From IMG/VR virus record IMGVR_UViG_3300045282_000148, positions 1 through 51,177 of that record: a DNA stretch of 51,177 nt; one strand, written 5' to 3'. Positions 1-51,177 of the stretch are shown here, piece by piece. The translations under genes were made by a program, and so were the position numbers. This stretch comes from a virus. The stretch's first letter is position 1. Every line of letters starts with the position of its first letter. Below the pieces are notes generated by a model that saw only the letters and a program-made list of their open reading frames with translations, did no database searches and had not been told where the DNA came from.

Positions 1-127
1 AGCTATACAACTCATTAAAGGTCAATTGTTTCGCGAGTTTAATGCTGGTTCAGGGATGGCCCAATGGAACAAGGAAAACGCCAATGCTCTCGATTACCAG
101 ACAAGTCCGCTACGATTGCTCACACAA
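1..127. repeat. Left copy of exact 127-bp terminal repeat
   Basis: Bases 1-127 are identical to bases 51051-51177. A 127-base overlap equals a common maximum assembler k-mer, so this is best read as a circular contig cut at an arbitrary point rather than a biological terminal repeat. The unit length without the duplicate is 51,050 bp. The gene beginning at 50350 reads in frame through the repeat into 2-388, which supports circular closure. Confidence 0.95.
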
Positions 128-11906: not shown

Positions 11907-12236
11907 ATGAGCGACAAACGCCGCAACACTCTAGACGAGTGCTCTCGGCCTAAGCTCCGCGAAATGCTGGAAGCGACCGAGCGGATTGCGCCAAACGGAC
12001 CCGCCGTCAAGATCATTCGCGAGGCAATCGAGCGGGCCGAGCGTGCTATCGGGGTAGATGCCCTGCTCTCAATCGCTGGATTGGCTAAGCGCTGGGGCTG
12101 TAGGCGTCAGCAGGTTGCACGACTTTTAGACCGTGGCGACGTTGAGTTCACGCTCATTGCTGGCCGCAGACTTATTCCCACGACGACAATTTCGCTGAAA
12201 ATGCCTCGGCGCCAACCTGGGCGTCGTAAAATCTAG
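11907..12236 (+). CDS. Helix-turn-helix DNA-binding protein (MerR/excisionase-like)
   Basis: The 109-aa product has a helical N-terminal half (residues 1-48). The C-terminal half carries a winged-helix/HTH of the excisionase or MerR type: LLSIAGLAKRWGCRRQQVARLL, here given in parts as IAGLAKRWGC and RQQVARLLDRGDV, with a beta wing FTLIAGRRLIPT. It is probably an early regulator of the divergent operons. It begins at an ATG 6 nt after its -10 box with no Shine-Dalgarno. Its end overlaps the convergent GIY-YIG gene by 4 bases. Confidence 0.7.
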   Translation: MSDKRRNTLDECSRPKLREMLEATERIAPNGPAVKIIREAIERAERAIGVDALLSIAGLAKRWGCRRQQVARLLDRGDVEFTLIAGRRLIPTTTISLKMPRRQPGRRKI

Positions 12237-12757
12237 CGAAGCGATCCGAGCATTGGATCGTATTCGTTTGTTGCGGCGGGACACAAATACCGTGACCATT
12301 CTTCTCTATTCTTGCGGTTGACGTGCCGCAATCGCTTGCCAACAGCAGCGTCAAGCAGATCGCACAAATTGGGATCGGCCTCAACGAAGGCGAGTGACCA
12401 TTTCGCGCGTTGCAAACGCCTCCGTAAGACTCCGCGTTCAAAATCATCGTCGATACGCGGTGGGCTTGTACCGGCCCGATTGAGTAACAGCCCAGCCGGA
12501 AGATGCCGCATGAAAAATGCGATTGTTTCCAGTTCGGCAGCGATTGATTTGTTATTTTCAGCGCTCGGGAATTCTTGGATGACCTCTAAGGCCGGTTTCA
12601 ATCCATTTCGTTTTAGATCAGCAATCCAAAGGTCTTTCGGCCGACCACGGTTCAGTTCTGATAAATGATTTCCGAGCCTCTGGACCGGATTGCAAGACAG
12701 CCCGATATATCGCACCCGATTAGTCCGTGGATCTTTGAGAGCATACAAATAATCCAT
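12233..12757 (-). CDS. GIY-YIG family endonuclease
   Basis: The 174-aa N-terminal nuclease has the GIY-YIG core in the form YLYALKD...VRYIGLS, followed by the conserved Arg/His region NPVQRLGNHLSE. The C-terminal half is basic and helical and probably binds DNA. Start 12757 (second ATG) is preferred because GAGGAG lies 6 bases upstream; the ATG at 12763 abuts it. Inserted leftward in a rightward operon, it is probably a free-standing homing-type nuclease. Confidence 0.75.
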   Translation of the reverse strand: MDYLYALKDPRTNRVRYIGLSCNPVQRLGNHLSELNRGRPKDLWIADLKRNGLKPALEVIQEFPSAENNKSIAAELETIAFFMRHLPAGLLLNRAGTSPPRIDDDFERGVLRRRLQRAKWSLAFVEADPNLCDLLDAAVGKRLRHVNRKNREEWSRYLCPAATNEYDPMLGSLR

Positions 12758-12773
12758 TTTCATCTCCTCATGA

Positions 12774-21672: not shown

Positions 21673-22311
21673 ATGAACTGGATTACTGACTCTCGCGGAA
21701 ATCGTGCCTCTGTCGAACGATGGGGCACGGAGGAAAAGGCAAAGGCGTCTCTTGAGACGTTGGATACCCGCTGCTACGGCTGCTCCGACTGCTCCGGCTG
21801 CTCCGGCTGCTCCGACTGCTCCGGCTGCTCCCGCTGCTACGGCTGCTACGGCTGCTACGGCTGCTCCGGCTGCTCCGACTGCTCCGGCTGCTCCGACTGC
21901 TCCGGCTGCTCCGACTGCTCCGGCTGCTACGGCTGCTCCCGCTGCTCCGGCTGCTACGGCTGCTACAGCTGCTCCGGCTGCTCCGGCTGCTACGACAAGA
22001 AAGAACAAAAGGACGCGCCGTTCTCTGTCCCCGTTATCGAGGACATCCATAAGAAAGTCTTAGAAGCGGCTTCCGTACCAGCGGCGCTCGATATGAGTTC
22101 GTTTCATGTCTGTGAGACAACGCATTGCCGCGCCGGCTGGGTCGTTCACTTGGCCGGTGAACCAGGCTACGCCTTGGAAAAGCAAACGTCGCCAATCTTC
22201 GCTGCCATGCAAATCTACAAGGCGAGCGGGTACGAAATCTCGCCAGTGAGGTTCTTCGATTCCAACGAAGCGGCGCTTGAGGACATGAGATCACTGGCAC
22301 TTGCGAAGTGA
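21673..22311 (+). CDS. Cys-triplet repeat protein with C-terminal HCRAGW domain
   Basis: The 212-aa product opens with a short domain (residues 1-33, NWITDSRGNRASVERWGTEE). Residues 34-108 are 25 perfect C-x-x triplets, mostly CSG, CSD and CYG, so 25 cysteines in 75 residues. The C-terminal domain (~120-212) contains FHVCETTHCRAGWVVHLAGE and RFFDSNEEA-like residues, a domain known from phages where it is usually paired with other repeats. The Cys array could bind metals or form a beta-solenoid; the function is unknown. The DNA is a 9-bp tandem repeat. Confidence 0.8.
   Translation: MNWITDSRGNRASVERWGTEEKAKASLETLDTRCYGCSDCSGCSGCSDCSGCSRCYGCYGCYGCSGCSDCSGCSDCSGCSDCSGCYGCSRCSGCYGCYSCSGCSGCYDKKEQKDAPFSVPVIEDIHKKVLEAASVPAALDMSSFHVCETTHCRAGWVVHLAGEPGYALEKQTSPIFAAMQIYKASGYEISPVRFFDSNEAALEDMRSLALAK
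21772..21996 (+). repeat. Imperfect 9-bp in-frame tandem repeat
   Basis: About 225 bp are built from TGCTCCGGC, TGCTCCGAC and TGCTACGGC units, coding the C-x-x triplets of the gene at 21673. All changes keep the TGC codon and the frame, so Cys spacing is under selection or recently expanded by slippage. Confidence 0.95.
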
Positions 22312-26974: not shown

Positions 26975-27065
26975 ATACCTTGGGCGATGCCCTCGGGCTA
27001 TAAAAGGAGAAATCCGTCGCCATTTTACAATCTTAAACGGCCTCTAACGGGCCTCGCAGCCAGTC

Positions 27066-27116
27066 GCGGCTGTGGTTTTCGCATTTCGCGAAGGACCACG
27101 GCCGCGTTTTCATTTC
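27066..27116 (+). terminator. Probable intrinsic terminator
   Basis: GCGGC/GCCGC, GTGG/CCAC and TTCGC/GCGAA stack into a long imperfect hairpin (27066-27105), followed by GTTTTCATTT. It separates the early region from the sedolisin block. The next real start is 27143. Confidence 0.65.
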
Positions 27117-27142
27117 AAACGCCACGCACAGGAGAACCGAAG

Positions 27143-27508
27143 ATGACCTTACTGCAAATCTTGCAACTGCTTCTAGGTAACATCGGAAAAGCTCCGGTCA
27201 TCCTGACATTCATCCAGGCCCTAGTCGCGGCGTTCAACGCCTTACTGGCCGGCCTCGGGCAGACTCCGCCGGTCGCTGTTGCTCACGCGGACGGCTCGCC
27301 GGAAGCCAAAGCAATCGAACAACTGGCCGCCGCCTTGCAATCGCACGGCGCATCAGAAGCCAAAAAGTTCGGAGATGGAACGATCCTCAAGACACTGTTC
27401 GGCGCTTTGCAAGGGTTGATGAATCTGCCGGGAATCGGCGGCCTGCTTACGCAAATTCTGACCGGCTGGCTGGGCGGTCTGTTGAATCCTACGGCCCCGA
27501 CGCCCTAA
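27143..27508 (+). CDS. Hydrophobic amphipathic protein upstream of sedolisin
   Basis: The 121-aa protein has hydrophobic helical stretches at residues ~1-40 (LLQILQLLLGNIG; PVILTFIQALVAAFNALLAG) and 84-112 (LFGALQGLMNLPGIGGLLTQI). It could be membrane-active. CAGGAG precedes the ATG. Position next to the protease and spanin-like genes suggests a lysis role, unproven. Confidence 0.5.
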   Translation: MTLLQILQLLLGNIGKAPVILTFIQALVAAFNALLAGLGQTPPVAVAHADGSPEAKAIEQLAAALQSHGASEAKKFGDGTILKTLFGALQGLMNLPGIGGLLTQILTGWLGGLLNPTAPTP

Positions 27509-27714: not shown

Positions 27715-29397
27715 ATGCCACTCGACAAGACGCAGACGATTACCGTCTCGCTCTTTTTGCGGCCGATGACGCCCGTCGCGCCGCCGGTCGCTGGGGCGCC
27801 ACCAATGGACCCGGCTACGTTCGCCGCTCAGCATTCGGCTGACCCAGCGGACATCGACGCCATTCGTGCGTTTGCGAATGACAAAGGTCTGCAAGTCGTT
27901 GGCGTTCACCCGATCCAGAGAATCGTGAACGTCTCTGGGACGATCGAACAGCTCGAAGCTGCTTTCGGGGCCGATACAGAGCAGCGGCCGACCGCGAATG
28001 GCGAACACCGCTTTTTGGCTAGAGCAGCGCAGCCGATGCCGCACTTGGGCATCGTCAAGACGTTGGGATGGGAGTCGGCGCCGTTTGCGCAGCCGCACTT
28101 TCGCAGACGACGAAAGCACCCCACCGCAGCAGCCGTAGCCGTCGAACCGCACGCCATGAAGCCGCTTGGGCCGGTCAAGACGGCTCAAATGTACGGCGTC
28201 ACAACTCGGCCGGCGGGAACCTACCGGACCTGCCACGGCTCGATCCTCTGTCTTGGCGGCGGCTATACGTCTTCGGACGTAGCCGCAAGCTGCCAACTCA
28301 ACGGTATCCCGGTTCCGACAATCATTGATGAATCGGTCCTAGGGGCCGGCAATGCCCCTGGAAACGACGCCGACGTGGAGTTGATGCTGGATATCGTTCA
28401 GATGGCCGGGGCTTACTTCGCTCGCACTGGGCAGCATATGACGATCCACGTCATTTTCTGTCCGAACACCGATGCAGGTTACGTCACCGGGAGCGGCTAC
28501 GGAGCGCATATTACGAACGTGGCGACGGAATCAAGCTCATGGGGCAGTTCCGAGGATAATTGGGCACAATCGGCTGGCCAGTTTGATTCGACGGCCAAAG
28601 GCTCAGTTACGCTCGGCGTCACGTATGTCGCAGCCTCGGGCGACGGTGGGGCGACAGACGGCACCGGTGGCCTGATTGTCGACTTCCCGGCGGCATCGCC
28701 CTACGTTCTCGGCATGGGCGGTACGAACCTATCGGACGCTGGCGAAGTAGTCTGGAACGATCCGCAAGGCGGTTCCGGCGGCGGCGGTATCTCTGGCGTC
28801 GAGACTCCGAAGCCGCCTTGGCAAAGCGACTACCCGACGGCTGGTGGTCGGTGTGTGCCTGATCTGGCGGCGAACTCAGCCCCGGCTACTTGTGGGACAA
28901 TCGTCGTACAAGGTCAACACATGGACATCGGCGGAACAAGCGCCGCCGCTCCGTTTATGGCTGGTATCCTATGTGCCCTGTGCGAGGAACTGCCGCACAA
29001 CATCGGGTATCTCAATCCTCTTTTGGAGACAATGCCGGCGACGTGCTTTGAGGACATTATCAAGGGCGATAATGGAGGTTTTAGCGCGAAGCCCGGTCCG
29101 GATATGTGTACCGGCCGCGGCAGCCCGAAACCGCTGGCGATGCTCGCGGCCTTGAAAGGCACGGCACCGCCTCCCGTCATTCCACCGCCGGTAACTCCTC
29201 CGCCCGTGACGCCCCCGCCCCCGATTACACCGCCGCCGACCGACATGACGGTCGCGCAGTTCCAAGCCAATCTCCGCGCGAGTGCCCGCCGAAAATTCAC
29301 AGCGGACCTCAAAACCGAGAGCCATTTAGAGCGCTGGTCGAATGCCTATTACGCGCTGTTTACAGACAACCTAATCGCGTCCGAGCCGATCGCATGA
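27715..29397 (+). CDS. Sedolisin-family serine-carboxyl peptidase (MEROPS S53)
   Basis: The 560-aa protein begins with a pro-kumamolisin-like activation domain (residues ~5-125; TITVSLFLRPM; VSGTIEQLEAAFG). The catalytic domain keeps the family's set: E222 and D226 (VELMLD), D253 (PNTDAGY) and S409 in GGTSAAAP. TGRGSP near the end matches the calcium-site region. A Pro-rich linker (about 480-505, PPVTPPP) joins a ~50-aa C-terminal helical domain. S53 peptidases are acid endopeptidases, usually secreted; no signal peptide is visible here. It sits beside spanin-like genes and could degrade host envelope protein. Confidence 0.9.
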   Translation: MPLDKTQTITVSLFLRPMTPVAPPVAGAPPMDPATFAAQHSADPADIDAIRAFANDKGLQVVGVHPIQRIVNVSGTIEQLEAAFGADTEQRPTANGEHRFLARAAQPMPHLGIVKTLGWESAPFAQPHFRRRRKHPTAAAVAVEPHAMKPLGPVKTAQMYGVTTRPAGTYRTCHGSILCLGGGYTSSDVAASCQLNGIPVPTIIDESVLGAGNAPGNDADVELMLDIVQMAGAYFARTGQHMTIHVIFCPNTDAGYVTGSGYGAHITNVATESSSWGSSEDNWAQSAGQFDSTAKGSVTLGVTYVAASGDGGATDGTGGLIVDFPAASPYVLGMGGTNLSDAGEVVWNDPQGGSGGGGISGVETPKPPWQSDYPTAGGRCVPDLAANSAPATCGTIVVQGQHMDIGGTSAAAPFMAGILCALCEELPHNIGYLNPLLETMPATCFEDIIKGDNGGFSAKPGPDMCTGRGSPKPLAMLAALKGTAPPPVIPPPVTPPPVTPPPPITPPPTDMTVAQFQANLRASARRKFTADLKTESHLERWSNAYYALFTDNLIASEPIA

Positions 29398-29568: not shown

Positions 29569-29907
29569 ATGAATCCTGAAGGCGTTATTACTCTTTGTGC
29601 CCTGAGTGCGGTGATTTCCGGCGTTGTCGTGTATCTATTCCGGCCGGATTCGAGCAGCGAACTCAAGTCGGCACAGGAAAGAGGCAACGCATTAGAAAGC
29701 CGCTGCATCGACCTGGAAAAGCAGCGGGACGACCTAATGGCCGAAACGACTGCTCAGCATGACTTGATCTCGCAGGTCAAAGAGGCCGCGTCGAAAGATC
29801 AAGCGGCGGCGAGTGAGGCTCAAGAGCGAGTGACGGCGCTGCTGGCTAAACACGAGCCGAAGAAACGCAGCCATCACCTCAGCAAGAAGGATGGAGGCGT
29901 CGACTGA
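29569..29907 (+). CDS. Spanin-like protein: N-terminal anchor plus coiled coil
   Basis: In the 112-aa protein, residues ~5-24 form a hydrophobic anchor (GVITLCALSAVISGVVVYLF). Residues 30-90 are coiled coil, and the tail is basic (KKRSHHLSKKDG). This is the layout of an inner-membrane spanin (Rz), the lysis protein connecting the two membranes. The sedolisin, tiny membrane proteins and this gene may form one lysis cassette. Confidence 0.5.
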   Translation: MNPEGVITLCALSAVISGVVVYLFRPDSSSELKSAQERGNALESRCIDLEKQRDDLMAETTAQHDLISQVKEAASKDQAAASEAQERVTALLAKHEPKKRSHHLSKKDGGVD

Positions 29908-30137: not shown

Positions 30138-30473
30138 ATGTCTGAATCCGTTCAAGAACAACTCACGGCAATCTTCGCAGCCGACGAATCCGCTCGGCCG
30201 CTGATCAGAAACCTCCGGCTGATCTCGGAACACCTATCCGTGGTCGGCAACGTCACAATTACCGGCAAGACCGCCGACGGCCGCGAGGTGATTATCGGGC
30301 CAGAGCTGTACAACCTGCGCCCGATGATCCAAGCCAAGATTGAAAGCGCCGCCGAGCCGCGAATGGCGAAGCTGCGGGCGTTGTACGTTCCACCAGCACC
30401 GGCTGCTCCTAAGGTCGCCGATACGCCGGACGACCGAGACGAGATTATCGAGATGGTGAAGAAACAAGCGTAG
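30138..30473 (+). CDS. Hypothetical protein
   Basis: The 111-aa protein has an N-terminal helical region, a central beta part (VGNVTITGKTADGREVIIGPE) and a C-terminal Pro-rich and acidic tail. No signal peptide or domain is recognised. GAGGAG precedes the ATG. It precedes the secreted haem-c operon. Confidence 0.5.
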   Translation: MSESVQEQLTAIFAADESARPLIRNLRLISEHLSVVGNVTITGKTADGREVIIGPELYNLRPMIQAKIESAAEPRMAKLRALYVPPAPAAPKVADTPDDRDEIIEMVKKQA

Positions 30474-30477
30474 CCCC

Positions 30478-32196
30478 ATGAAACCGCTGTACTGCCTATG
30501 GCTGGGAGCGGCCGCGTCAATGACCGTTTGCCTTGCCTACGAGCCGATCCCGCAGAATCCAAGAGTGGAGAGGATCGCGGTACGTCATACCAATTCTGTG
30601 AAAGTTAGTAGCAAATTAGTAGATACCCCGGCGGTACTCACGCCCGCCGAGCGTTCCACGGCGCGGAAAGGCCACGTACGACGGGCCGGCGACATCGACC
30701 AGTGCCCCGCGCTCGTGGCCAAAACACCCGTCGCCCGGCAGGCACTTGCCGCATTACTAAAGCCCGTTGAAGCCGAGTTGCCACGGGCGACGGGTTTATC
30801 ACGGCTGGGCGGCTGGTTAGGAGCCGCTGTGGCCGACTTGATCCCGCCGTTCGACGAACAGCCGATAGCCGTCGAGATCGAGCAGCCGCGTAGCCCGGCA
30901 ATGGAACTGGCCGACGCCGCCCAAGACGCAGCACGGCTTCCGCCTGACGCTGCGATTCACGCCCGGTACTTATCGCTCTACAACGTGCCTCGAGCACAGC
31001 GGGGCAACGCCGCTCGCGTGGTGAGCTATACGCTCAACGCCCTGAGCCGTAGCCGGTCGATCTATCTGCCGGTGCGAGTCTCTTCTAGCCTGCTGAGAAT
31101 CGACACTAGGTGGTTTGCCGAAGACGAGGCCGTTCACGAATGGGAACACGCTTGGTTCGGTCTGACGCAGAAAGACCCGTACTGGCACGTTCCGACGCTG
31201 ATCTATTTCGAGGGCAAGACGCAGCACGCGACGGTAGACGGTGGCTGGCTGAATCAATCGCACGTTGCGGCGTTGCGGAATTACACCGGCTCGGTGGGAG
31301 CTATTCTGCGAGCGGATTACTTCGTAGCCAATGCGACGATACCGCCGGCCTACTATGAATTCATTGGTCTGCCCGCGACTGAGGGTGAATTTCTGAAAGG
31401 ATTGGGCGTAGATGAAAAAGCCATCGAACGATTGCGGGCTGACGCGGGTGCCAATCTTGATAATAGTGGCATTACCGACAAGACGCGGCGAGTCGTCTGG
31501 AAGCAAGGTTTACTTGGTGGAATTTATAACACGCTCGATGTGGAGAAGGTCGATGCGGAACATGATCCGGCCCGGCGGATTGTTTCGGTCGGTAAGTTCG
31601 CCCTTCAGCATGAAGCGGAAGAGTGGTTTGCTATGGCGCCAAATGGATTTTGGTGGACAGCACTCTTCGACAAAAACGGCAAGAGGCAAGATGCTGTGCC
31701 GGTCAAGGTCGCCACGGATTCTATTGCAACCGACCAGCATGCGCCGGACAAGGAGGTCGTGCCGATGCAGTCGTGCTACCGCTGCCACGTCGAGAGCGGG
31801 CTACGGACGCTGAGCGACGACCAATCAAAAACCTTCGCCGGAGGGAGTATCAATCTCAAGAGCTATGACTACGCCACGATCCAGCGGGCACGTGATTTCT
31901 ACAACGAGCCGAGATTACTTCGTCAAATGGCCTTTGATCGTCAGACGCACGACGCAGCGGTTTATTCGGCAACTGGTGGCTGGACCTGCGCCAGAGCCGT
32001 ACAGGGTTTTAGTGACGCGGTGAGAATGTACGCCTACGATCTCGTAACGCCGGAAATGGCCCGACGGGAACTTGGCGGGCCGATTTCGCCAGCCTGTACC
32101 GACGTGCGGAACTTGCAACTATTGAAGGGTACGCCAGTCTTGAGAGGCTTGTTCGAACAGTCATTCGCAGAGGCAAGTACGTTAGGTGCCAAATGA
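30478..32196 (+). CDS. Secreted protein with haem-c motif CYRCH
   Basis: The 572-aa protein starts with a signal-peptide-like hydrophobic stretch (residues 3-20, LYCLWLGAAASMTVC). Its middle region (~160-215) contains RYLSLYNVPRAQRGNAARVV and SYTLNALSRSRSI, a segment I associate with planctomycete secreted proteins. Residues 433-437 are C-Y-R-C-H, a covalent haem-c binding site. It is probably exported and matured by the host's cytochrome-c system. The HEWEH at 220-224 is noted but may be chance. It is the first gene of a three-gene exported operon. Confidence 0.7.
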   Translation: MKPLYCLWLGAAASMTVCLAYEPIPQNPRVERIAVRHTNSVKVSSKLVDTPAVLTPAERSTARKGHVRRAGDIDQCPALVAKTPVARQALAALLKPVEAELPRATGLSRLGGWLGAAVADLIPPFDEQPIAVEIEQPRSPAMELADAAQDAARLPPDAAIHARYLSLYNVPRAQRGNAARVVSYTLNALSRSRSIYLPVRVSSSLLRIDTRWFAEDEAVHEWEHAWFGLTQKDPYWHVPTLIYFEGKTQHATVDGGWLNQSHVAALRNYTGSVGAILRADYFVANATIPPAYYEFIGLPATEGEFLKGLGVDEKAIERLRADAGANLDNSGITDKTRRVVWKQGLLGGIYNTLDVEKVDAEHDPARRIVSVGKFALQHEAEEWFAMAPNGFWWTALFDKNGKRQDAVPVKVATDSIATDQHAPDKEVVPMQSCYRCHVESGLRTLSDDQSKTFAGGSINLKSYDYATIQRARDFYNEPRLLRQMAFDRQTHDAAVYSATGGWTCARAVQGFSDAVRMYAYDLVTPEMARRELGGPISPACTDVRNLQLLKGTPVLRGLFEQSFAEASTLGAK

Positions 32197-32573
32197 AACG
32201 GACAATCGCGCTCATCGCTCTACTGTGCGGCATGATCCCGGCGATTGCTCGCGGAGCCGACAAGACTTGGTTTCGCGGATTCGTCTATCACGCCGATGGC
32301 TCGCATGTCTCTAAAGAACACATCAGCGGTCGCGCCGAGATTTACGTCACGGATCGCGTAGGTCAAGTTCTTTACACGCGCGAATTCGGAGACAAGTCAC
32401 AGCCGCCCTATGGACATGAAGGCGAATTCGTCTTTGAACTTCCGGCCGGAGAACTCGCGGATGATTCACTTATCAAGATTTTCGTCACGGCGGATGGCTA
32501 TGAGAACGCGAAGGTGGCCTACCTAGCTGCAAACCAAATGCAAGTCCACATCAGTTTGGGAGAGAAGAAGTGA
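32193..32573 (+). CDS. Secreted beta-sandwich protein
   Basis: The 126-aa protein has a clear signal peptide (RTIALIALLCGMIPAIARGA) and then a beta-rich domain (FRGFVYHADGSHVSKEHISG) that resembles carboxypeptidase-regulatory or Ig-like extracellular domains. Coupled by ATGA overlaps to both haem-c genes, it may bind or support them. Confidence 0.65.
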   Translation: MKRTIALIALLCGMIPAIARGADKTWFRGFVYHADGSHVSKEHISGRAEIYVTDRVGQVLYTREFGDKSQPPYGHEGEFVFELPAGELADDSLIKIFVTADGYENAKVAYLAANQMQVHISLGEKK

Positions 32574-33205
32574 AGCGCTGCATCGCAATCGTCGCTATGG
32601 TCTGCGGCATGGTCCCCCAGCAGCTTGACGCCGGCTGCCGCGTGGCCGTGGGACAGACATTCAACACGGGCTTCGCCTATACGACGGCATTCGTTCCGGC
32701 GGGAATCGGCGTTGCGGCGGTGGCACCCTATCAGTACGCCTACAATCCGCCGCCTACTGTCAATGTGGTCGTAGACACGAACTCGATTGCGTCCGCGGTT
32801 GTCCAGCAACTAACGTCTCAAATGAACGCCGTTAATCAGCCTTCAGCACGAGCGGCGCAGCCAGCAGATAGACCACCGCCGCCCGTTCCTGGACCAGCCG
32901 CAAATCAGCCAGCACAACCAGGGCCAGCAGCTAACGGGCCGCCGCAAGCGGACGTGTTCGCAGAGACCGGAGAATTCGCCAAATGCGTCCAATGCCATTC
33001 GCCGACCGGCAAGAAGAAAAGTGCGTTCGCCAAGCTTGATTTGAGCGCCGTTACAACGCTAGCGTCACTAGCGCCCGATAAGCGGCTATTGGTCATCGAC
33101 AGAATTACAAGCGACGATCCGGCAGCGATGATGCCGCCTCCGGGAGAGCCGAGACTGTCGCCGGAAGAACTCGGAAGTTTGATCCACAGGTTAAGTCACA
33201 AATGA
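32570..33205 (+). CDS. Secreted mono-haem cytochrome c-like protein
   Basis: The 211-aa protein has a signal peptide (residues 2-20, KRCIAIVAMVCGMV), a Pro/Ala-rich linker (about 92-130), then a cytochrome-c domain. C139-V-Q-C142-H143 is the haem site, and M187 or M188 in AMMPPPG is the probable second axial ligand. Its class fits planctomycete-type mono-haem cytochromes. Phage-encoded c-type cytochromes are extremely rare. It could affect periplasmic electron flow in the infected host. Confidence 0.8.
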   Translation: MKRCIAIVAMVCGMVPQQLDAGCRVAVGQTFNTGFAYTTAFVPAGIGVAAVAPYQYAYNPPPTVNVVVDTNSIASAVVQQLTSQMNAVNQPSARAAQPADRPPPPVPGPAANQPAQPGPAANGPPQADVFAETGEFAKCVQCHSPTGKKKSAFAKLDLSAVTTLASLAPDKRLLVIDRITSDDPAAMMPPPGEPRLSPEELGSLIHRLSHK

Positions 33206-33262: not shown

Positions 33263-33820
33263 ATGGCTGCCGTGATTGTAGCGGAAGGCGTCGAAGCGAG
33301 GGAGATAGAGGGATTTCCAGGTTACGCCGTATCGGCAGATGGAGTCGTATGGTCACACCGAACCCGCTATGGAGAGCCTTGTGACTCATGGAGACCTAAA
33401 AAAACGCGACCTGATAGGATCGGATATGCCTCAGTCGGCTTATACAGGAATGGAAGGGAACTCACGAGAAGGATTCATTCCCTCGTAATGAATGCGTGGA
33501 TCGGCCCTAGGCCAGATGGTCAAGAAGTGTGCCATGGGAATGGCGACAGAATGGATTGCCGGTTGTCAAATCTGCGTTATGACACTCATTTGGCAAATGA
33601 GGCAGATAAAAAACGAATGGGCAGGGGATGCGAGGGCGAGAACCATCCAATGGCAAAACTAAATGCTCAATTGGTTGCCGATTTCAGAAGGAGGATTGCG
33701 AGTGGTGAAGCGACCAGAAAGCAATTGGCCATAGAATCCGGCTTTGCATATAAAACGATATGCGGCGCCGTGGCCGGAAGGCGTTGGAAATGTGTATCTG
33801 AGGAAATGATCGGACCTTAA
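33263..33820 (+). CDS. NUMOD4/HNH homing endonuclease
   Basis: The 185-aa protein begins with a NUMOD4 motif (EIEGFPGYAVSADGVVWS), then an HNH domain: IHSLVMNAWIG, VCHGNGDRMDCRLSNLRYDT, and ANEADKK with a NUMOD-like tail (GENHPMAKL; TRKQLAIESGFAYKTI). It is a site-specific homing nuclease that sits between two genes for secreted proteins. A small hairpin (AGCCTG/CAGGCT) precedes it. Confidence 0.9.
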   Translation: MAAVIVAEGVEAREIEGFPGYAVSADGVVWSHRTRYGEPCDSWRPKKTRPDRIGYASVGLYRNGRELTRRIHSLVMNAWIGPRPDGQEVCHGNGDRMDCRLSNLRYDTHLANEADKKRMGRGCEGENHPMAKLNAQLVADFRRRIASGEATRKQLAIESGFAYKTICGAVAGRRWKCVSEEMIGP

Positions 33821-33834
33821 CTAAGGAGAATCAA

Positions 33835-34317
33835 ATGATTCGTCACTTGCTACATCGGTTGTTCCATCGTCGGTGTATTGTCGCGTTTGCGCTCGTCGCG
33901 CTCTCGGCGTCTGCACTCCAAGCCTGCCCGGTGCAGGTTGGGGCTGTGATCGCCCAGCCAGCTTTCGTGGGAGGTTATTCACAGGGCTTTCAGAGTGTCG
34001 CTACGGTTGCCACCGCTGCGCCTTGTGCGTGTGCGACTCAGCAGGCCGCTGCGGTCGTCGCGCCGCAAGCGGTCGAGTCCTATGCCGCTCCGCAAGTCGT
34101 CCAGAGCTACGCTCAGCCGCTCGTAGTGGCTCAGCCCTTGGCGGTTGCGGTGCCGTTCTACTCGTTTAGCGCGTTCGCAACCCCGTTCTACGGCTATGCG
34201 TCAAACAACGTGTTCGTCGGTAGCAGTCGTGGTCGGTTCTTCGGCGGTCGGCAGGTCTCGCGGCAGCGTGTCGCTGTGACAACCACGCGGACGAGGACCG
34301 TTATACGAGGACGTTAA
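33835..34317 (+). CDS. Secreted low-complexity protein
   Basis: The 160-aa protein has a signal peptide or N-terminal anchor (residues ~14-30, CIVAFALVALSASALQA) followed by Ala/Val/Gln-rich repeats (QAVESYAAPQVVQSYAQPL) and an Arg-rich end. Such AQ/VP-rich exported proteins are common in planctomycetes. Unknown role; it could be a surface or envelope-modifying protein. A strong terminator follows. Confidence 0.6.
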   Translation: MIRHLLHRLFHRRCIVAFALVALSASALQACPVQVGAVIAQPAFVGGYSQGFQSVATVATAAPCACATQQAAAVVAPQAVESYAAPQVVQSYAQPLVVAQPLAVAVPFYSFSAFATPFYGYASNNVFVGSSRGRFFGGRQVSRQRVAVTTTRTRTVIRGR

Positions 34318-36594: not shown

Positions 36595-36780
36595 ATGATC
36601 CTCTGTGTAATTTGGGTTGTGCTGATGATGTTTTGGCTGTTCGGCGGTGGTTGGTATATCGGAAGTCAACCGACTCCGAACTGGACGGGCTACGGATTCT
36701 CGACGTTGATCCCCTGGGTCTGCGTACTGATTCTTGGCTTGATTCAATTCGGGTTCTGGACTCCGGGGCCAATTCGCTGA
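36595..36780 (+). CDS. Two-span membrane protein
   Basis: The 61-aa protein has hydrophobic segments at ~2-20 (LCVIWVVLMMFWLFGGG) and ~38-55 (LIPWVCVLILGLIQFGFW). Unknown; a holin is possible. The next gene's ATG overlaps its stop (TGATG). Confidence 0.55.
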   Translation: MILCVIWVVLMMFWLFGGGWYIGSQPTPNWTGYGFSTLIPWVCVLILGLIQFGFWTPGPIR

Positions 36781-36935
36781 TGCTCGGAATCATCCTCATA
36801 GTGTTGCTGGTCCTGCTGCTGCTCGGTGCATTGCCGCAAGTCGGCTTACACGAGAGCGGCTACGGTCCCGGCGTCGGTATTGGAACGATTCTAATTATTG
36901 TGTTGATCCTGTATCTGTTGGGGGTGTTCCGTTGA
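36780..36935 (+). CDS. DUF3309-like small membrane protein
   Basis: The 51-aa sequence GIILIVLLVLLLLGALP, followed by a Gly-rich turn and GTILIIVLILYLLGVF, matches the pattern of the DUF3309 family of bacterial small membrane proteins. Such proteins are rare in phages. Function unknown. Confidence 0.65.
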   Translation: MLGIILIVLLVLLLLGALPQVGLHESGYGPGVGIGTILIIVLILYLLGVFR

Positions 36936-43002: not shown

Positions 43003-44421
43003 ATGCCAACCTTCCGAGAAAAGGACATTGAACAGCTCGTCACTAAGTGCGAATACGAGCGCATCATAAGCGGCGACCCGCGACCAGCCGCGGAAATCGC
43101 TTGTGCCAGAATCAGCGAGCAGCTCGGTAGCGGCGAACTAAGCTGGACGGATTTACCTCCTGTTTCTCGAATTGCGCGGTATCTCGTTCGCGACAAGGCG
43201 ACAGGGCGACCGCTGGCGATTCAGGATTCCAAAGTCTCTTCCGATATGGTGTATCTAAAGAACATCGGGGAATCCTACGATGATCTTTCCAGGCGGTATC
43301 GTAATCCAGAAACGGGACTGATCGACGGATTTGTCAGTGAGCAAACGTCGCAACTCATCAAAGAGGAATCGACCTCGACGGCCACGACGATGGGCAGTTT
43401 CATGGCCCTCACGTCGCAACTGTTTTTCAATGCCCTCATCGGCGCTTACGAGCACGCTGAGATGAACGTCGCCCGTACGTTCCGCAATATCCCCTCGACG
43501 TTCCTGCGTGGCGAGAAGTTCGCTGGCGTCGGTGGCCTGGAAAAGATTCTCCAAGGCACGCCCGAGGGCCGAGATCTTCCGCACTTGACCGCGACCGAAG
43601 ATTACGTCGATACCCCGGCGCAACGCAAGGTCGGTGCGATCATCGACATCTCTTGGGAATTGTCGGTCAGTGACCATTCCGGCGAGATTCTCCGACGTTA
43701 CGAATCGCTCGGCAAGGCCGTAGCCGTCACCCGTGAAATGGAAGCCGTCGGCACCTTGACCGACACCAACCCGAACGACGGAACCGCCGGATACAAGCGT
43801 ACCCGCTACAACTGGAAGGGCACGCAATACGCGACTTACGAAAGCGCGGCCGGAACGGATTGGATCAATCTCCTCACCAGTTCGTCCAGTTCGACCTATT
43901 GGGGCGCCAACCCGCTGGTTGACCAGAACAGCATCAACGGCGCCTATGTCACGGCCACTAAGATTTGCGATCCGTGGACCGGACTGCCGATCGGCTACGG
44001 TCAAGGGCCGTGGAAATTGTTTTGCTCGCCTGATCTGAAGTTCACCGCTGATCGAATTGCTCGAACCGTCGAATACGTCACCGTCGGCGGAACGGCAGCG
44101 ACAACGAACTACGCCCCGCAACTGCATACCAATATCGGGACGGTCATTCCGTTCGAGGTCATCGCCTCGGCCTATATCGGCGCCTTGTGCGATCTCGCGG
44201 CCGCGGCCAGCAATACGAACATCCTCCGCACGACCTGGTGGATCGGCAAGCCGGAAGAGGCGTTCTCGTGGCAGACCGCGCAGGAGTTGGTCAATCAGGA
44301 GGCCATTCCCGGCGCCGGGGATATGTTTAACAGAGTTCTTGAGAAACAAACCAGGTGTTTCGACTGCAAGACCGCGTATGTGTTAAACCCAAGATACGTT
44401 ATACAGTGTATGGCTTCTTGA
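43003..44421 (+). CDS. Major capsid protein
   Basis: The 472-aa size, position after the protease/scaffold and composition fit an HK97-fold major capsid protein. The N-terminal ~120 residues are helical, like a delta or scaffold-interacting domain. Later come FFNALIGAYEHAEMNVARTF and the IDISWELSVSDHSGEIL and FEVIASAYIGALC regions, typical of capsid axial domains. The last residues (FDCKTAYVLNPRYVIQCMAS) include two Cys. Its stop overlaps by 23 bases the end of the inserted HNH gene. Confidence 0.75.
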   Translation: MPTFREKDIEQLVTKCEYERIISGDPRPAAEIACARISEQLGSGELSWTDLPPVSRIARYLVRDKATGRPLAIQDSKVSSDMVYLKNIGESYDDLSRRYRNPETGLIDGFVSEQTSQLIKEESTSTATTMGSFMALTSQLFFNALIGAYEHAEMNVARTFRNIPSTFLRGEKFAGVGGLEKILQGTPEGRDLPHLTATEDYVDTPAQRKVGAIIDISWELSVSDHSGEILRRYESLGKAVAVTREMEAVGTLTDTNPNDGTAGYKRTRYNWKGTQYATYESAAGTDWINLLTSSSSSTYWGANPLVDQNSINGAYVTATKICDPWTGLPIGYGQGPWKLFCSPDLKFTADRIARTVEYVTVGGTAATTNYAPQLHTNIGTVIPFEVIASAYIGALCDLAAAASNTNILRTTWWIGKPEEAFSWQTAQELVNQEAIPGAGDMFNRVLEKQTRCFDCKTAYVLNPRYVIQCMAS

Positions 44422-45040
44422 CCATAACAGGTATCGTCAAAGCCTTTTCTGTAGTCCATCCACGTTGCAGTCGCATTGAGATTGTGTACTGACTGATGCC
44501 GAGTTTTTCAGCCCATTCTACGATGCAAAGAGTCTCGCCGTTGAATGTCAATTTCGTGTTGCTTCGTCTATTGCGTTGCTGGTGTTTGTAGTCCGTCCAG
44601 CGGCAATTGCCAGGTTCGTAGTTCCGTTCATTGTCAATTCGATCAAGCATTAGGCCATCTGGGCAAAGGCCCATATCGGCCAAAAAGTTCTCAAACGAGT
44701 TCCTCCATCGGTCGCAAACGACAATCCCGCGGCCGCCATAGTCAGCATGATTTTTGTGATCGAGATCGTAGCAACGAAGTTTCATGTTGGTCCATGCACG
44801 ATGAGTGCGAGTGTGGGATAAGCCGTGAGTTTTGTGAGCACAGCTATTGCAGGCACTAGCTCCGTTGCGAAGATTCCAAGACCGAGTGACGATTAGATTT
44901 CCACATTTGCACTGACAACGAAAATGTTTTTGCCCGGACGGAGCTAGGAAAACCTCGACAACCTTAAGCAATCCGAATTCATCGCCTACGGAAACGAGTA
45001 GACGACAAGGACGACCAGGTTTACGCTGTTCTTCAGACAT
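44399..45040 (-). CDS. HNH endonuclease 1 (with zinc-ribbon N-terminus)
   Basis: In the 213-aa protein, residues ~38-68 form a zinc ribbon (CQCKCGN ... CNSCAHK). The HNH block follows: YGGRGIVVCDRW, FLADMGLCPDGLMLDRIDNE, NYEPGNCRWTD and NRRSNTKLTF. The second ATG (45040) is preferred because GGAGG stands 5 bases away; the first ATG is only 2 bases from it. It is inserted leftward between the capsid gene and 45121. It has an extended -10 and hairpin leader. It may be a homing endonuclease acting on neighbouring capsid DNA. Confidence 0.9.
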   Translation of the reverse strand: MSEEQRKPGRPCRLLVSVGDEFGLLKVVEVFLAPSGQKHFRCQCKCGNLIVTRSWNLRNGASACNSCAHKTHGLSHTRTHRAWTNMKLRCYDLDHKNHADYGGRGIVVCDRWRNSFENFLADMGLCPDGLMLDRIDNERNYEPGNCRWTDYKHQQRNRRSNTKLTFNGETLCIVEWAEKLGISQYTISMRLQRGWTTEKALTIPVMVKKPYTV

Positions 45041-45070
45041 CATGACCTCCGAGAAAGGTTGTGAAGTTTA

Positions 45071-46247: not shown

Positions 46248-46862
46248 TTACTTGCGTTTCATTTGGCGAGGCGGCTGTGTCAATGCTCTTTCGACCGACC
46301 ATCCCAATTTAAATAGCCGATCCCAAATCCCCTGATATGACATCCCGCAGATTTTTGCCCATCCGTAGAGATCATGAACTTCGCCGCGAAATTCGATTTT
46401 GGATTCATACTTCCCCGTAGGGACCGTCAGTGCTCTTTCAATTGACCAGCCGTAATCGCACAACCGTGTACTGAGCGTTTTTTGAGAAATGCCGAGTATT
46501 TCAGACCACTTAGCAAGACAATGAATCTGTCCCTGAAATTCGATCATCCGATTGCTGCGGCGATTCCGGCCTTGCTGCTTGCGCGTAGCCCAAATGCAAT
46601 TTTGCGGCTCATATCCTCGGTCATTGTCTTTGCGCTCCAGAGTCATTTGGGGCGGCGGCTGGCCCATATCGGCAAGGAAGTTTGGAAACGACATCCAACG
46701 CTCGCAGACCGTAATTCCGCGTCCACCATACGATTTCCATTGATGGGAATCTGGATTCGTACAGCGTTGGAGCATGGCGCACCAGATAACGTGGATTCGC
46801 GTTTTGGTCAATCCGTGGTAGTGCCGACGATAGGGTCGTATGGTACGATCAATCTTAGACAT
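46248..46862 (-). CDS. HNH endonuclease 2
   Basis: The 204-aa protein has the same core as HNH1: YGGRGITVCERW, FLADMGQPPPQMTLERKDND, and GYEPQNCIWATRKQQGRN. Two C-terminal repeats (EILGISQKTLSTRL; KICGMSYQGIWDRL) look like NUMOD-type DNA-binding modules. ATG 46862 is preferred since GGAGG sits 5 bases before it, whereas the ATG at 46874 has the SD inside the coding region. It is a homing-type nuclease on the minus strand. Confidence 0.9.
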   Translation of the reverse strand: MSKIDRTIRPYRRHYHGLTKTRIHVIWCAMLQRCTNPDSHQWKSYGGRGITVCERWMSFPNFLADMGQPPPQMTLERKDNDRGYEPQNCIWATRKQQGRNRRSNRMIEFQGQIHCLAKWSEILGISQKTLSTRLCDYGWSIERALTVPTGKYESKIEFRGEVHDLYGWAKICGMSYQGIWDRLFKLGWSVERALTQPPRQMKRK

Positions 46863-46892
46863 CGTGACCTCCATTCAGGTTTCGATCGTTTA

Positions 46893-47588: not shown

Positions 47589-48014
47589 ATGCCCAGTACC
47601 GCAGACCCCATACTGGCTTCGCTTGCCTCAACTTTTACAGGGCTGGGCTATACCGTTAAAACGGCCACCGAGCCGAAGGTGATGGAATGGGACGCGGCAT
47701 TGCCGCTGACTAGGATATGCCCAGTTACGAGACCCACGATCGAATGGCATGCTTTCCAGCATCGAAATGTTCTCCAACGCTATCAGGTCGTTTATGTCCA
47801 AGCCAATAATTTAGACCCGACTGTCGACGTAAATGCGAATCAATTCAAGCTGGATTTGATTAACAATTTTCAGGGACCAAATACAGCACTGGCGGCGGTT
47901 GCGGGGGTATGGAATTCAATCGTGAGCGATGACGTGGATTACGACAGGTCGCTATTACCTCAAGGCTACAACTATACAACGGCTATTGTCGAGGTCTCAT
48001 GGATTGAGTCGTGA
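47589..48014 (+). CDS. Putative tail terminator protein
   Basis: The 141-aa protein has a helical N-terminus (ILASLASTFTGLGYTVKT), then a beta region and YTTAIVEVSWIES at the end. Size, order and pattern match tail-terminator (gpU-like) proteins. It overlaps by 32 bases the convergent HNH3 gene. Confidence 0.6.
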   Translation: MPSTADPILASLASTFTGLGYTVKTATEPKVMEWDAALPLTRICPVTRPTIEWHAFQHRNVLQRYQVVYVQANNLDPTVDVNANQFKLDLINNFQGPNTALAAVAGVWNSIVSDDVDYDRSLLPQGYNYTTAIVEVSWIES

Positions 48015-48417
48015 GAATCCGCTCTATCGACCATCCATAATTCAACCGCGAGCGAATTATGCTATGATGGATGCCTGTGATTTTCGACCATTCAGAAACG
48101 GTTCGACGTATTCCTTGATATTCAAGCACCCGATTATGTCTCGTGTTGTTCATTTGCTCGGTTTTTGTGCGCCAATAGCAATTGTCGGGACTATAGCCGC
48201 GGTCATTATTTATCCGGTCCAACTCTAATCCCTTTGGACGTTTACCCATATCCTCCAAAAAATTCTCGAATTTGAGCCATCGTTTACAGACAGTAATTCC
48301 GCGACCGCCGTAATCATAGAAACGAGGATGTCGAGGTCTCAGACAGCGTCCAATCATGCTGTTCCAACAATCGTATTCTGGCGTTTTGCTCAAACCATGT
48401 GTTGTATTTCCGTTCAT
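47983..48417 (-). CDS. HNH endonuclease 3
   Basis: The 144-aa product is the shortest of the three relatives: THGLSKTPEYDCWNSMIGR, YGGRGITVCKRW, MGKRPKGLELDRINNDRGY and NCYWRTKTEQMNNTRHNR. It has one C-terminal NUMOD-like helix. SD GGAGG stands 6 bases before the ATG. It is inserted leftward between tail-terminator and decoration-like genes. Confidence 0.9.
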   Translation of the reverse strand: MNGNTTHGLSKTPEYDCWNSMIGRCLRPRHPRFYDYGGRGITVCKRWLKFENFLEDMGKRPKGLELDRINNDRGYSPDNCYWRTKTEQMNNTRHNRVLEYQGIRRTVSEWSKITGIHHSIIRSRLNYGWSIERILTTQSMRPRQ

Positions 48418-50350: not shown

Positions 50351-51177
50351 TGCCCTCCGAAGATAAACTCACCGAACAGATTACCATTGCCGCAGAGGGC
50401 ATTAAGCAGCTCGTCGAGCAAGGGAAGAAGACGCTTTCGGCCACCGAGCACCTGGCGCGAGGCGTATCGCCAGCGGCCGCGACGGCATTCGCACAAGCCG
50501 CATCGTCTCCGGTGGCGAGAGAATTCGCCCAAGCCGGATTGCGAAACCCAGCCGTACCTCCGGCAGTCCATGAAGGAATCAGCCAGATTCAGGTGGCGAG
50601 TAAGCCACCGGCCGCGAAGGCGTTGCGGCCAGATCAATGGCCCCAAGGAATGCCCTCATTGCCGTCGCCGGCCGTCTCGCAGACCGTCCATCAGGAAGTA
50701 GCCCAAATTCAGGCCGCAAGTCAGCCCCAGGCCAAGCGGAGCTTTCCAGAATCGTTTGAGGCCATCCAAGCGCGGATGTTGCACGCTGTAAGCATTGGGG
50801 CCGACCCTATAGCAGCCGCTAGGACTGGCGGTGGAATGCCATTGAAGCCCAGCCAATGGCCCGCTGGGATGCCTGGCTTGCCCGTAGGCTCACCGGGGAA
50901 CCCGGCACCGCCGGGGATGCCGGGCTTGCCAACGCCTGCCGTACCGTCGCCACCGTCTCCTCAACAGGCCTCCGGTGGTGGAGAGGGCGGAGGATTTTTC
51001 TCAATGCCGAGTTTCCGAGGTGTCGCAGCCGCGGCCGGACTTGGGCTTGGAGCTATACAACTCATTAAAGGTCAATTGTTTCGCGAGTTTAATGCTGGTT
51101 CAGGGATGGCCCAATGGAACAAGGAAAACGCCAATGCTCTCGATTACCAGACAAGTCCGCTACGATTGCTCACACAA
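50350..51177 (+). CDS. Tape-measure-position tail protein (N-terminal part)
   Basis: The gene starts at 50350 overlapping the chaperone stop and runs off the right end; joined to 2-388 it makes about 362 aa. The N-terminus is helical (LTEQITIAAEGIKQLVEQG). The middle has Pro/Gly-rich collagen-like repeats (GMPGLPVGSPGNPAPPGMPG) and a hydrophobic stretch (GVAAAAGLGLGAIQLI). In lambda-like order this slot encodes the tape measure; 362 aa would imply a short tail, so either the tail is short or this is another tail protein. Confidence 0.6.
   Translation, partial: MPSEDKLTEQITIAAEGIKQLVEQGKKTLSATEHLARGVSPAAATAFAQAASSPVAREFAQAGLRNPAVPPAVHEGISQIQVASKPPAAKALRPDQWPQGMPSLPSPAVSQTVHQEVAQIQAASQPQAKRSFPESFEAIQARMLHAVSIGADPIAAARTGGGMPLKPSQWPAGMPGLPVGSPGNPAPPGMPGLPTPAVPSPPSPQQASGGGEGGGFFSMPSFRGVAAAAGLGLGAIQLIKGQLFREFNAGSGMAQWNKENANALDYQTSPLRLLTQ
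51051..51177. repeat. Right copy of exact 127-bp terminal repeat
   Basis: Identical to bases 1-127. See the left copy. It lies within the tape-measure-position gene, so the repeat is not a gene-delimited element. Confidence 0.95.

Follow-up and report, generated by a model that had tools for sequence, protein, structure and literature searches.

Genes at the locus

The window (the whole 51,177-base stretch of virus record IMGVR_UViG_3300045282_000148 that was analysed) carries three consecutive genes that putatively encode exported proteins of 572, 126 and 211 aa, each opening with a short hydrophobic leader, as an earlier note on this DNA had proposed. BIG (30478..32196, + strand) and SMALL (32570..33205, +) each contain one haem-attachment motif, CYRCH at aa 433-437 of BIG (31774..31788, +) and CVQCH at aa 139-143 of SMALL (32984..32998, +), and are separated by the gene for the 126-aa protein (32193..32573, +). 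The Pro-rich linker reported by the note is visible in the SMALL translation as a Pro/Ala-rich stretch (32834..32947, +). Of the two ATGA overlaps that it described, the one at 32193 is present, but the one at 32570 reads GTGA, the third gene having a GTG start.

Conservation of the CxxCH motifs argues for c-type haem proteins made by the phage, as the note had claimed. The motif is invariant in 15/15 BIG and 8/8 SMALL sequences and is followed by MP(P) in all SMALLs, and no relative lacking CxxCH was found, although the note had named such relatives, or loss of the motif in sister phages, as grounds for rejecting its interpretation. This conservation is a stronger test than shuffling, in which CxxCH appeared in 0.2% (BIG) and 0.1% (SMALL) of trials. 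Among the 125 six-frame ORFs of at least 100 aa in the window, the only other CxxCH is the CPFCH of the helicase ORF.

SMALL looks like a His/Met electron-transfer cytochrome. Its predicted second haem ligand, Met188 of an MPP motif (33131..33133, +), is invariant in the phage and cellular versions compared, and the combination of CxxCH with a downstream Met ligand by which class I cytochromes c are recognized occurs in 17/17 sequences compared. The window SMALL exceeds the cut-off for PSCyt1 (PF07635; E 1.5e-5, 26.0 bits, cut-off 22), as do the SMALLs of L008 and L113, while the L002 match falls below it and the SMALLs of L009, L014 and L110 gave no PSCyt1 match. A profile including domain 1 of the cellular relatives described below picks up cytochrome c6 and FoxE structures. 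SMALL resembles the PSCyt1 class I cytochromes in its CxxCH and Met but adds a leader, a V/P-rich stretch and the Pro-rich linker, and BIG has no match to PF07635. The 126-aa protein, the putative beta-sandwich partner of the note, had zero Pfam or NCBIfam matches, and tblastn searches of phage records with it or SMALL as query recovered no relatives.

The Met ligand suggested in the note fits SMALL but not BIG: in 48 sequences, the CxxCH His is the only conserved His or Met. R163, D280, Y292 and R337 are invariant in these 48 sequences, and N187 and Y235 nearly so. Since BIG has no conserved second ligand and retains invariant polar residues, its haem site may be open, which points to catalysis or sensing. 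The AlphaFold model of the window BIG has a confident core (mean pLDDT 74.9, with residues 1 to about 130 low), and that of a fused bacterial homologue has a mean pLDDT of 87.7. Neither model returned a fold match at E < 0.001 in PDB or BFVD, and the idea that BIG has a fold relative among viruses or in PDB was therefore dropped. The BIG haem domain had no Pfam match, and BIG matched no PHROG family.

Genomic context of the module

The first 127 bases of the window (1..127, +) are identical to 51051-51177, and the record is, judging from its ends, a complete phage genome, terminally redundant or circular. Because of this end repeat and the presence of terminase, helicase, RusA, portal and capsid genes, we consider the window a phage genome rather than host DNA at a contig edge. 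Host contamination of the contig is likewise ruled out by the exact repeat together with the location of the module between replication genes and structural genes. The portal, prohead and capsid proteins match those of planctomycete prophage-like loci, and a planctomycete host is likely for this phage.

The note treated the three genes alone as the unit and missed a peptidase gene, which lies upstream of BIG on the same strand and within 1.5 kb in 15/15 copies. In the window, it encodes a sedolisin-type serine peptidase with pro-kumamolisin and S8/S53 domains (27715..29397, +; PF00082 E 9e-9, PF09286 E 6.6e-7, both above cut-off) and with the motifs GGTSAAAP (SGTS-like) and ELMLD; a signal peptide was not seen in it. 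Five peptidase types occur beside BIG (S53, S8, C1, M10 and C39-like): the window has a sedolisin, the prophages have a subtilase (recognized from motifs only in L111), four phages have a papain type (with a C1 match below the Pfam cut-off in LR756511.1), two have a matrixin, and three copies that have BIG only stand beside a C39-like type, its matches also below the cut-off. Assignment was by family models, from which activity is predicted.

Several small genes accompany the peptidase. A 173-aa protein with long amphipathic/hydrophobic stretches and no Pfam match (26987..27508, +) occupies the position that small, helix-rich proteins have before BIG in LR756511.1, L009, L010, L112 and L118, a likeness of kind rather than demonstrated homology. 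Between the peptidase and BIG are genes for a 112-aa protein with an N-terminal membrane segment and a coiled coil (29569..29907, +; no convincing Pfam match) and, immediately upstream of BIG, a 111-aa protein for which no family was found (30138..30473, +). Downstream of SMALL, a V/A-rich exported protein with a Cys right behind its leader (33835..34317, +) corresponds by alignment to the one that comes after SMALL in other modules (10210-10602 in L014). An HNH endonuclease gene with a weak NUMOD4 (33263..33820, +; PF13392 E 1.6e-8) is probably an insertion separating SMALL from the V/A-rich gene, at a place where other modules have none. Further downstream, a 107-aa two-helix hydrophobic DUF3309 protein (36612..36935, +; PF11752 E 5.6e-9) is a possible holin. 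No endolysin or holin was recognized among 61 further window ORFs; compared with a lysis cassette, the window contains a peptidase and membrane proteins, and an endolysin may be present yet unrecognized.

Distribution in phages and prophages

Fifteen BIG genes were found, across seven phage records (47-595 kb) and five planctomycete prophage-like loci. The single relative detected by tblastn among 50,697 phage records was the unannotated 595-kb phage LR756511.1, which shares with the window the gene order BIG, SMALL, V/A-rich gene. Scans of IMG/VR and GTDB contigs with single window proteins gave no matches, but BIG alignments did match, and alignment-based IMG/VR scans yielded five further records of 47, 94, 133, 187 and 341 kb, the 94-kb record stopping inside BIG. 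BIG adjoins SMALL in the 47-, 133-, 187-, 341- and 595-kb records and lies one gene apart from it in the window. The note had made the 126-aa middle protein a core partner, which did not hold: its gene was seen in none of the other modules, in which SMALL comes directly after BIG, and the protein is thus accessory.

Whole-record searches found one SMALL per phage record. SMALL comes after BIG wherever this is visible (several prophage and viral contigs stop near the module), except in three BIG-only copies, which are the second copies that the three largest phages have next to a C39-like gene, and in one fused copy (L104:5637-7091), where the C-terminus of BIG is joined to V/A-rich tail sequence and SMALL was not found. 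The second BIGs (L007, L011 and L119) are shorter, their C39-like neighbour is exported, and thymidylate synthase-type genes lie nearby.

A profile of phage BIGs gave one Planctomycetota genome match far stronger than the cellular matches, and a strong BIG match was then found in 5/7 genomes of that Planctomycetota family. The prophage-like locus runs subtilase, BIG, SMALL, ATPase/acetyltransferase gene, terminase, portal, prohead protein and capsid, and the prophage copies show purifying selection (dN/dS about 0.2-0.35, with dS near saturation). In a maximum-likelihood tree, all phage and prophage copies group in one clan (100/99) that excludes every cellular sequence, and the window BIG, whose row had a long branch in the first tree, groups with the planctomycete prophage BIGs (100/100). 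The planctomycete connection drawn in the note thus gains support from these nearest BIG relatives and from the SMALL score above the PSCyt1 cut-off. The loci L104, L110, L112 and L113 (genomes G375, G403, G399 and G400) are compact subtilase/BIG/SMALL/terminase/portal/prohead/capsid clusters with MoaB- and endo/exonuclease-type neighbours common to related genomes, and protein identity between the G375 and G403 clusters is 58-80%. No replication or integrase genes were seen in these clusters, which could be domesticated prophages or gene-transfer-agent-like elements.

Cellular di-haem relatives

Scanning GTDB contigs with the core alignment recovered 69 loci in Planctomycetota, Poribacteria, Acidobacteriota, Verrucomicrobiota and others, Armatimonadota among them; the first cellular match was on a Neorhizobium plasmid (L016), where the protein is annotated merely as 'c-type cytochrome'. 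Most of these unnamed homologues have an export leader and two CxxCH motifs about 350-400 aa apart, with a PSCyt1-type domain first and a BIG domain second, and the parts after the BIG domain vary (TPR, LRR, dockerin), with a kinase part also among the additions. Based on tblastn and profile matches and common invariant residues, BIG is homologous to domain 2 of this family, and SMALL corresponds to domain 1. The phage pair has the same domains, CxxCH sites, MPP and invariant residues; whereas the secreted bacterial protein comes from a single fused gene with domain 1 first, the phages have two genes with domain 2 first, and every phage module showing both haem domains encodes them separately. 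Since the cellular proteins fuse the PSCyt1-type domain and then the BIG domain, sequence comparison gives good support to the view that BIG and SMALL each represent one half of a bacterial di-haem protein not yet described, with the halves split and reversed in order. The note, in describing two separate haem-c proteins, had missed this relationship.

Two better-known systems were compared with the family. A pair made up of an electron-transfer haem and an open haem would broadly recall the bacterial di-haem peroxidase CcpA and MauG, but these have no sequence or fold in common with the BIG domain, which matches no solved structure. Fatty acid cis/trans isomerase Cti (PF06934) was dropped as a candidate relative: its matches in 3/33 cellular homologues were weak (one just at the cut-off) and short, two examples placing them within the domain 1 region and directly behind it, and neither BIG nor domain 2 matched it.

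Di-haem matches occurred in at least 9/294 and at least 12/392 Planctomycetota genomes, a prevalence of a few per cent that is a lower bound, because scoring was restricted to the best few candidates of each genome. Among the genes next to the bacterial one, a caspase is the most frequent (7/107 neighbours), mostly with an export leader, and in 12 planctomycete genomes, 4/20 caspase matches lay within 5 kb of a di-haem gene versus 0.05 expected. Caspases near the di-haem gene also occur in L016, L031, L040, L060, L073, L077, L078, L080 and L084. Some caspase-family (C14) neighbours, which include those in G127, G280 and G367, are fused to FGE, amidase or peptidoglycan-binding domains. In L036 (2899-5622), a Ser/Thr kinase stands in front of an extracytoplasmic di-haem unit, a fusion that is possibly a haem-based sensor kinase.

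Proposed function and alternatives

The ancestry and anatomy of the module (the split, the common origin, the haem motifs, the peptidase linkage and the prophage-like copies) can be regarded with high confidence as read from sequence. In order, it comprises a peptidase, a small protein that is membrane-active or coiled, BIG, SMALL and an exported V/A-rich protein. We propose that BIG and SMALL are exported, receive haem from the host cytochrome c maturation system and dock, which would restore the two-haem unit. The His/Met haem of SMALL could then exchange electrons with the BIG haem, in either direction, and the open coordination site of the BIG haem, with its invariant polar residues, may be where a small oxidant or the side chain of a protein reacts. 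In the least certain step, late in infection, the two-haem unit and the neighbouring peptidase would act on the protein-rich envelope of planctomycetes, in lysis, egress or envelope remodelling.

The lack of a recognized endolysin, the small membrane-active proteins and the structural genes alongside suggest such a late envelope role, and lysis in particular is suggested by position and the lack of a known endolysin. Haem attachment, docking, enzyme activity and late expression are parts of the proposal, and the haem pair might contribute by oxidizing envelope proteins, by controlling the peptidase or by interfering with the host caspase-linked protein. BIG may also act alone, since the three copies beside a C39-like gene and one fused prophage copy have no SMALL. 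Taken whole, a late, envelope-targeted protease combined with a split di-haem oxidoreductase of planctomycete viruses is a tentative reading that in our judgement approaches, but does not reach, being probable. That the module is a phage weapon of a new kind, in which a peptidase and a split, reactive two-haem enzyme from, or aimed at, the caspase-paired di-haem system are turned against the planctomycete envelope, is a more doubtful possibility.

Phage cytochromes are usually taken as borrowed host metabolism, and the note had offered an auxiliary metabolic module as one explanation: the pair would reroute periplasmic electron flow, feeding or protecting host respiration in infection. As a PSCyt1-type class I cytochrome, SMALL is consistent with such a role, but a second ligand is not conserved in BIG, the modules showed no partner gene of respiration or metabolism, and their constant partner is a peptidase whose type is swapped. 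Furthermore, the phage copies form one old clan outside the cellular ones rather than scattered recent captures; by the usual marks of auxiliary metabolic genes, they are not nested among host homologues and have no pathway partner, making an ordinary auxiliary metabolic gene less likely. Because the module is a single old viral lineage with kept motifs, constant pairing and an exchangeable peptidase, we favor a function of the phage itself and consider the metabolic explanation distinctly unlikely. The phage auxiliary genes soxC/soxD are a precedent for phage-borne c-type cytochrome genes (PMC8190135), and soxD, like the present pair, is a phage-encoded c-type cytochrome gene next to a partner gene (PMC8190135). 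However, soxD encodes a host-type sulfur oxidation enzyme, and two reported phage copies lack haem motifs (PMC8190135), whereas the present module belongs to a viral lineage of its own, keeps its motifs invariant and includes a peptidase.

Alternatively, as the note had also raised, the split proteins may be decoys or inhibitors that mimic the host di-haem protein, disturb a caspase-containing envelope system and block a death or defence response. We give this some weight because bacteria have the fused protein next to exported caspases: Planctomycetota and other phyla have fused homologues, the caspases cluster with their genes well beyond expectation, and the L036 kinase fusion is sensor-like. 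Yet the haem motifs and polar residues, not needed in a decoy, are fully retained, the phages themselves supply peptidases, and matches came from a few per cent of Planctomycetota genomes (a lower bound); a decoy seems unlikely. We know of no defence role for the cellular di-haem system. Even less probable is that the exported proteins are tail-tip or surface components used in adsorption; the module adjoins structural genes in the 47-kb phage (L008) and the prophages, but its position varies among phages, BIG has no PHROG counterpart, and phage structural proteins do not carry export leaders. Haem binding is itself predicted, so the CxxCH motifs could in principle be chance or decayed sequence binding no haem, which is scarcely credible given their invariance in every BIG and SMALL, in phages and bacteria alike and even at identities as low as about 25%, and the retention of the SMALL Met ligand.

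Haem chemistry here seems to be an integral part of a recurrent viral module whose ancestry is its own, found in 47-kb to 595-kb phages and always with a peptidase alongside. The module also points to a bacterial family whose main domain has no Pfam model or known fold and which often stands beside exported caspases. In the open-access literature (subscription papers were outside our coverage), we found no publication on the module or on the caspase/di-haem pairing. The module offers a marker gene for planctomycete phages and prophages, as well as a concrete handle on viral dealings with the odd planctomycete envelope.

The window has further features of its own. Five probable homing-type endonucleases of the GIY-YIG and HNH kinds are encoded at 12233-12763, 33263-33820, 44399-45043, 46248-46874 and 47983-48417, the second of which sits within the module, with SMALL on one side and the V/A-rich gene on the other. 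A protein encoded at 21673-22311 contains numerous CSGCSDCSGCSRC-type repeats.
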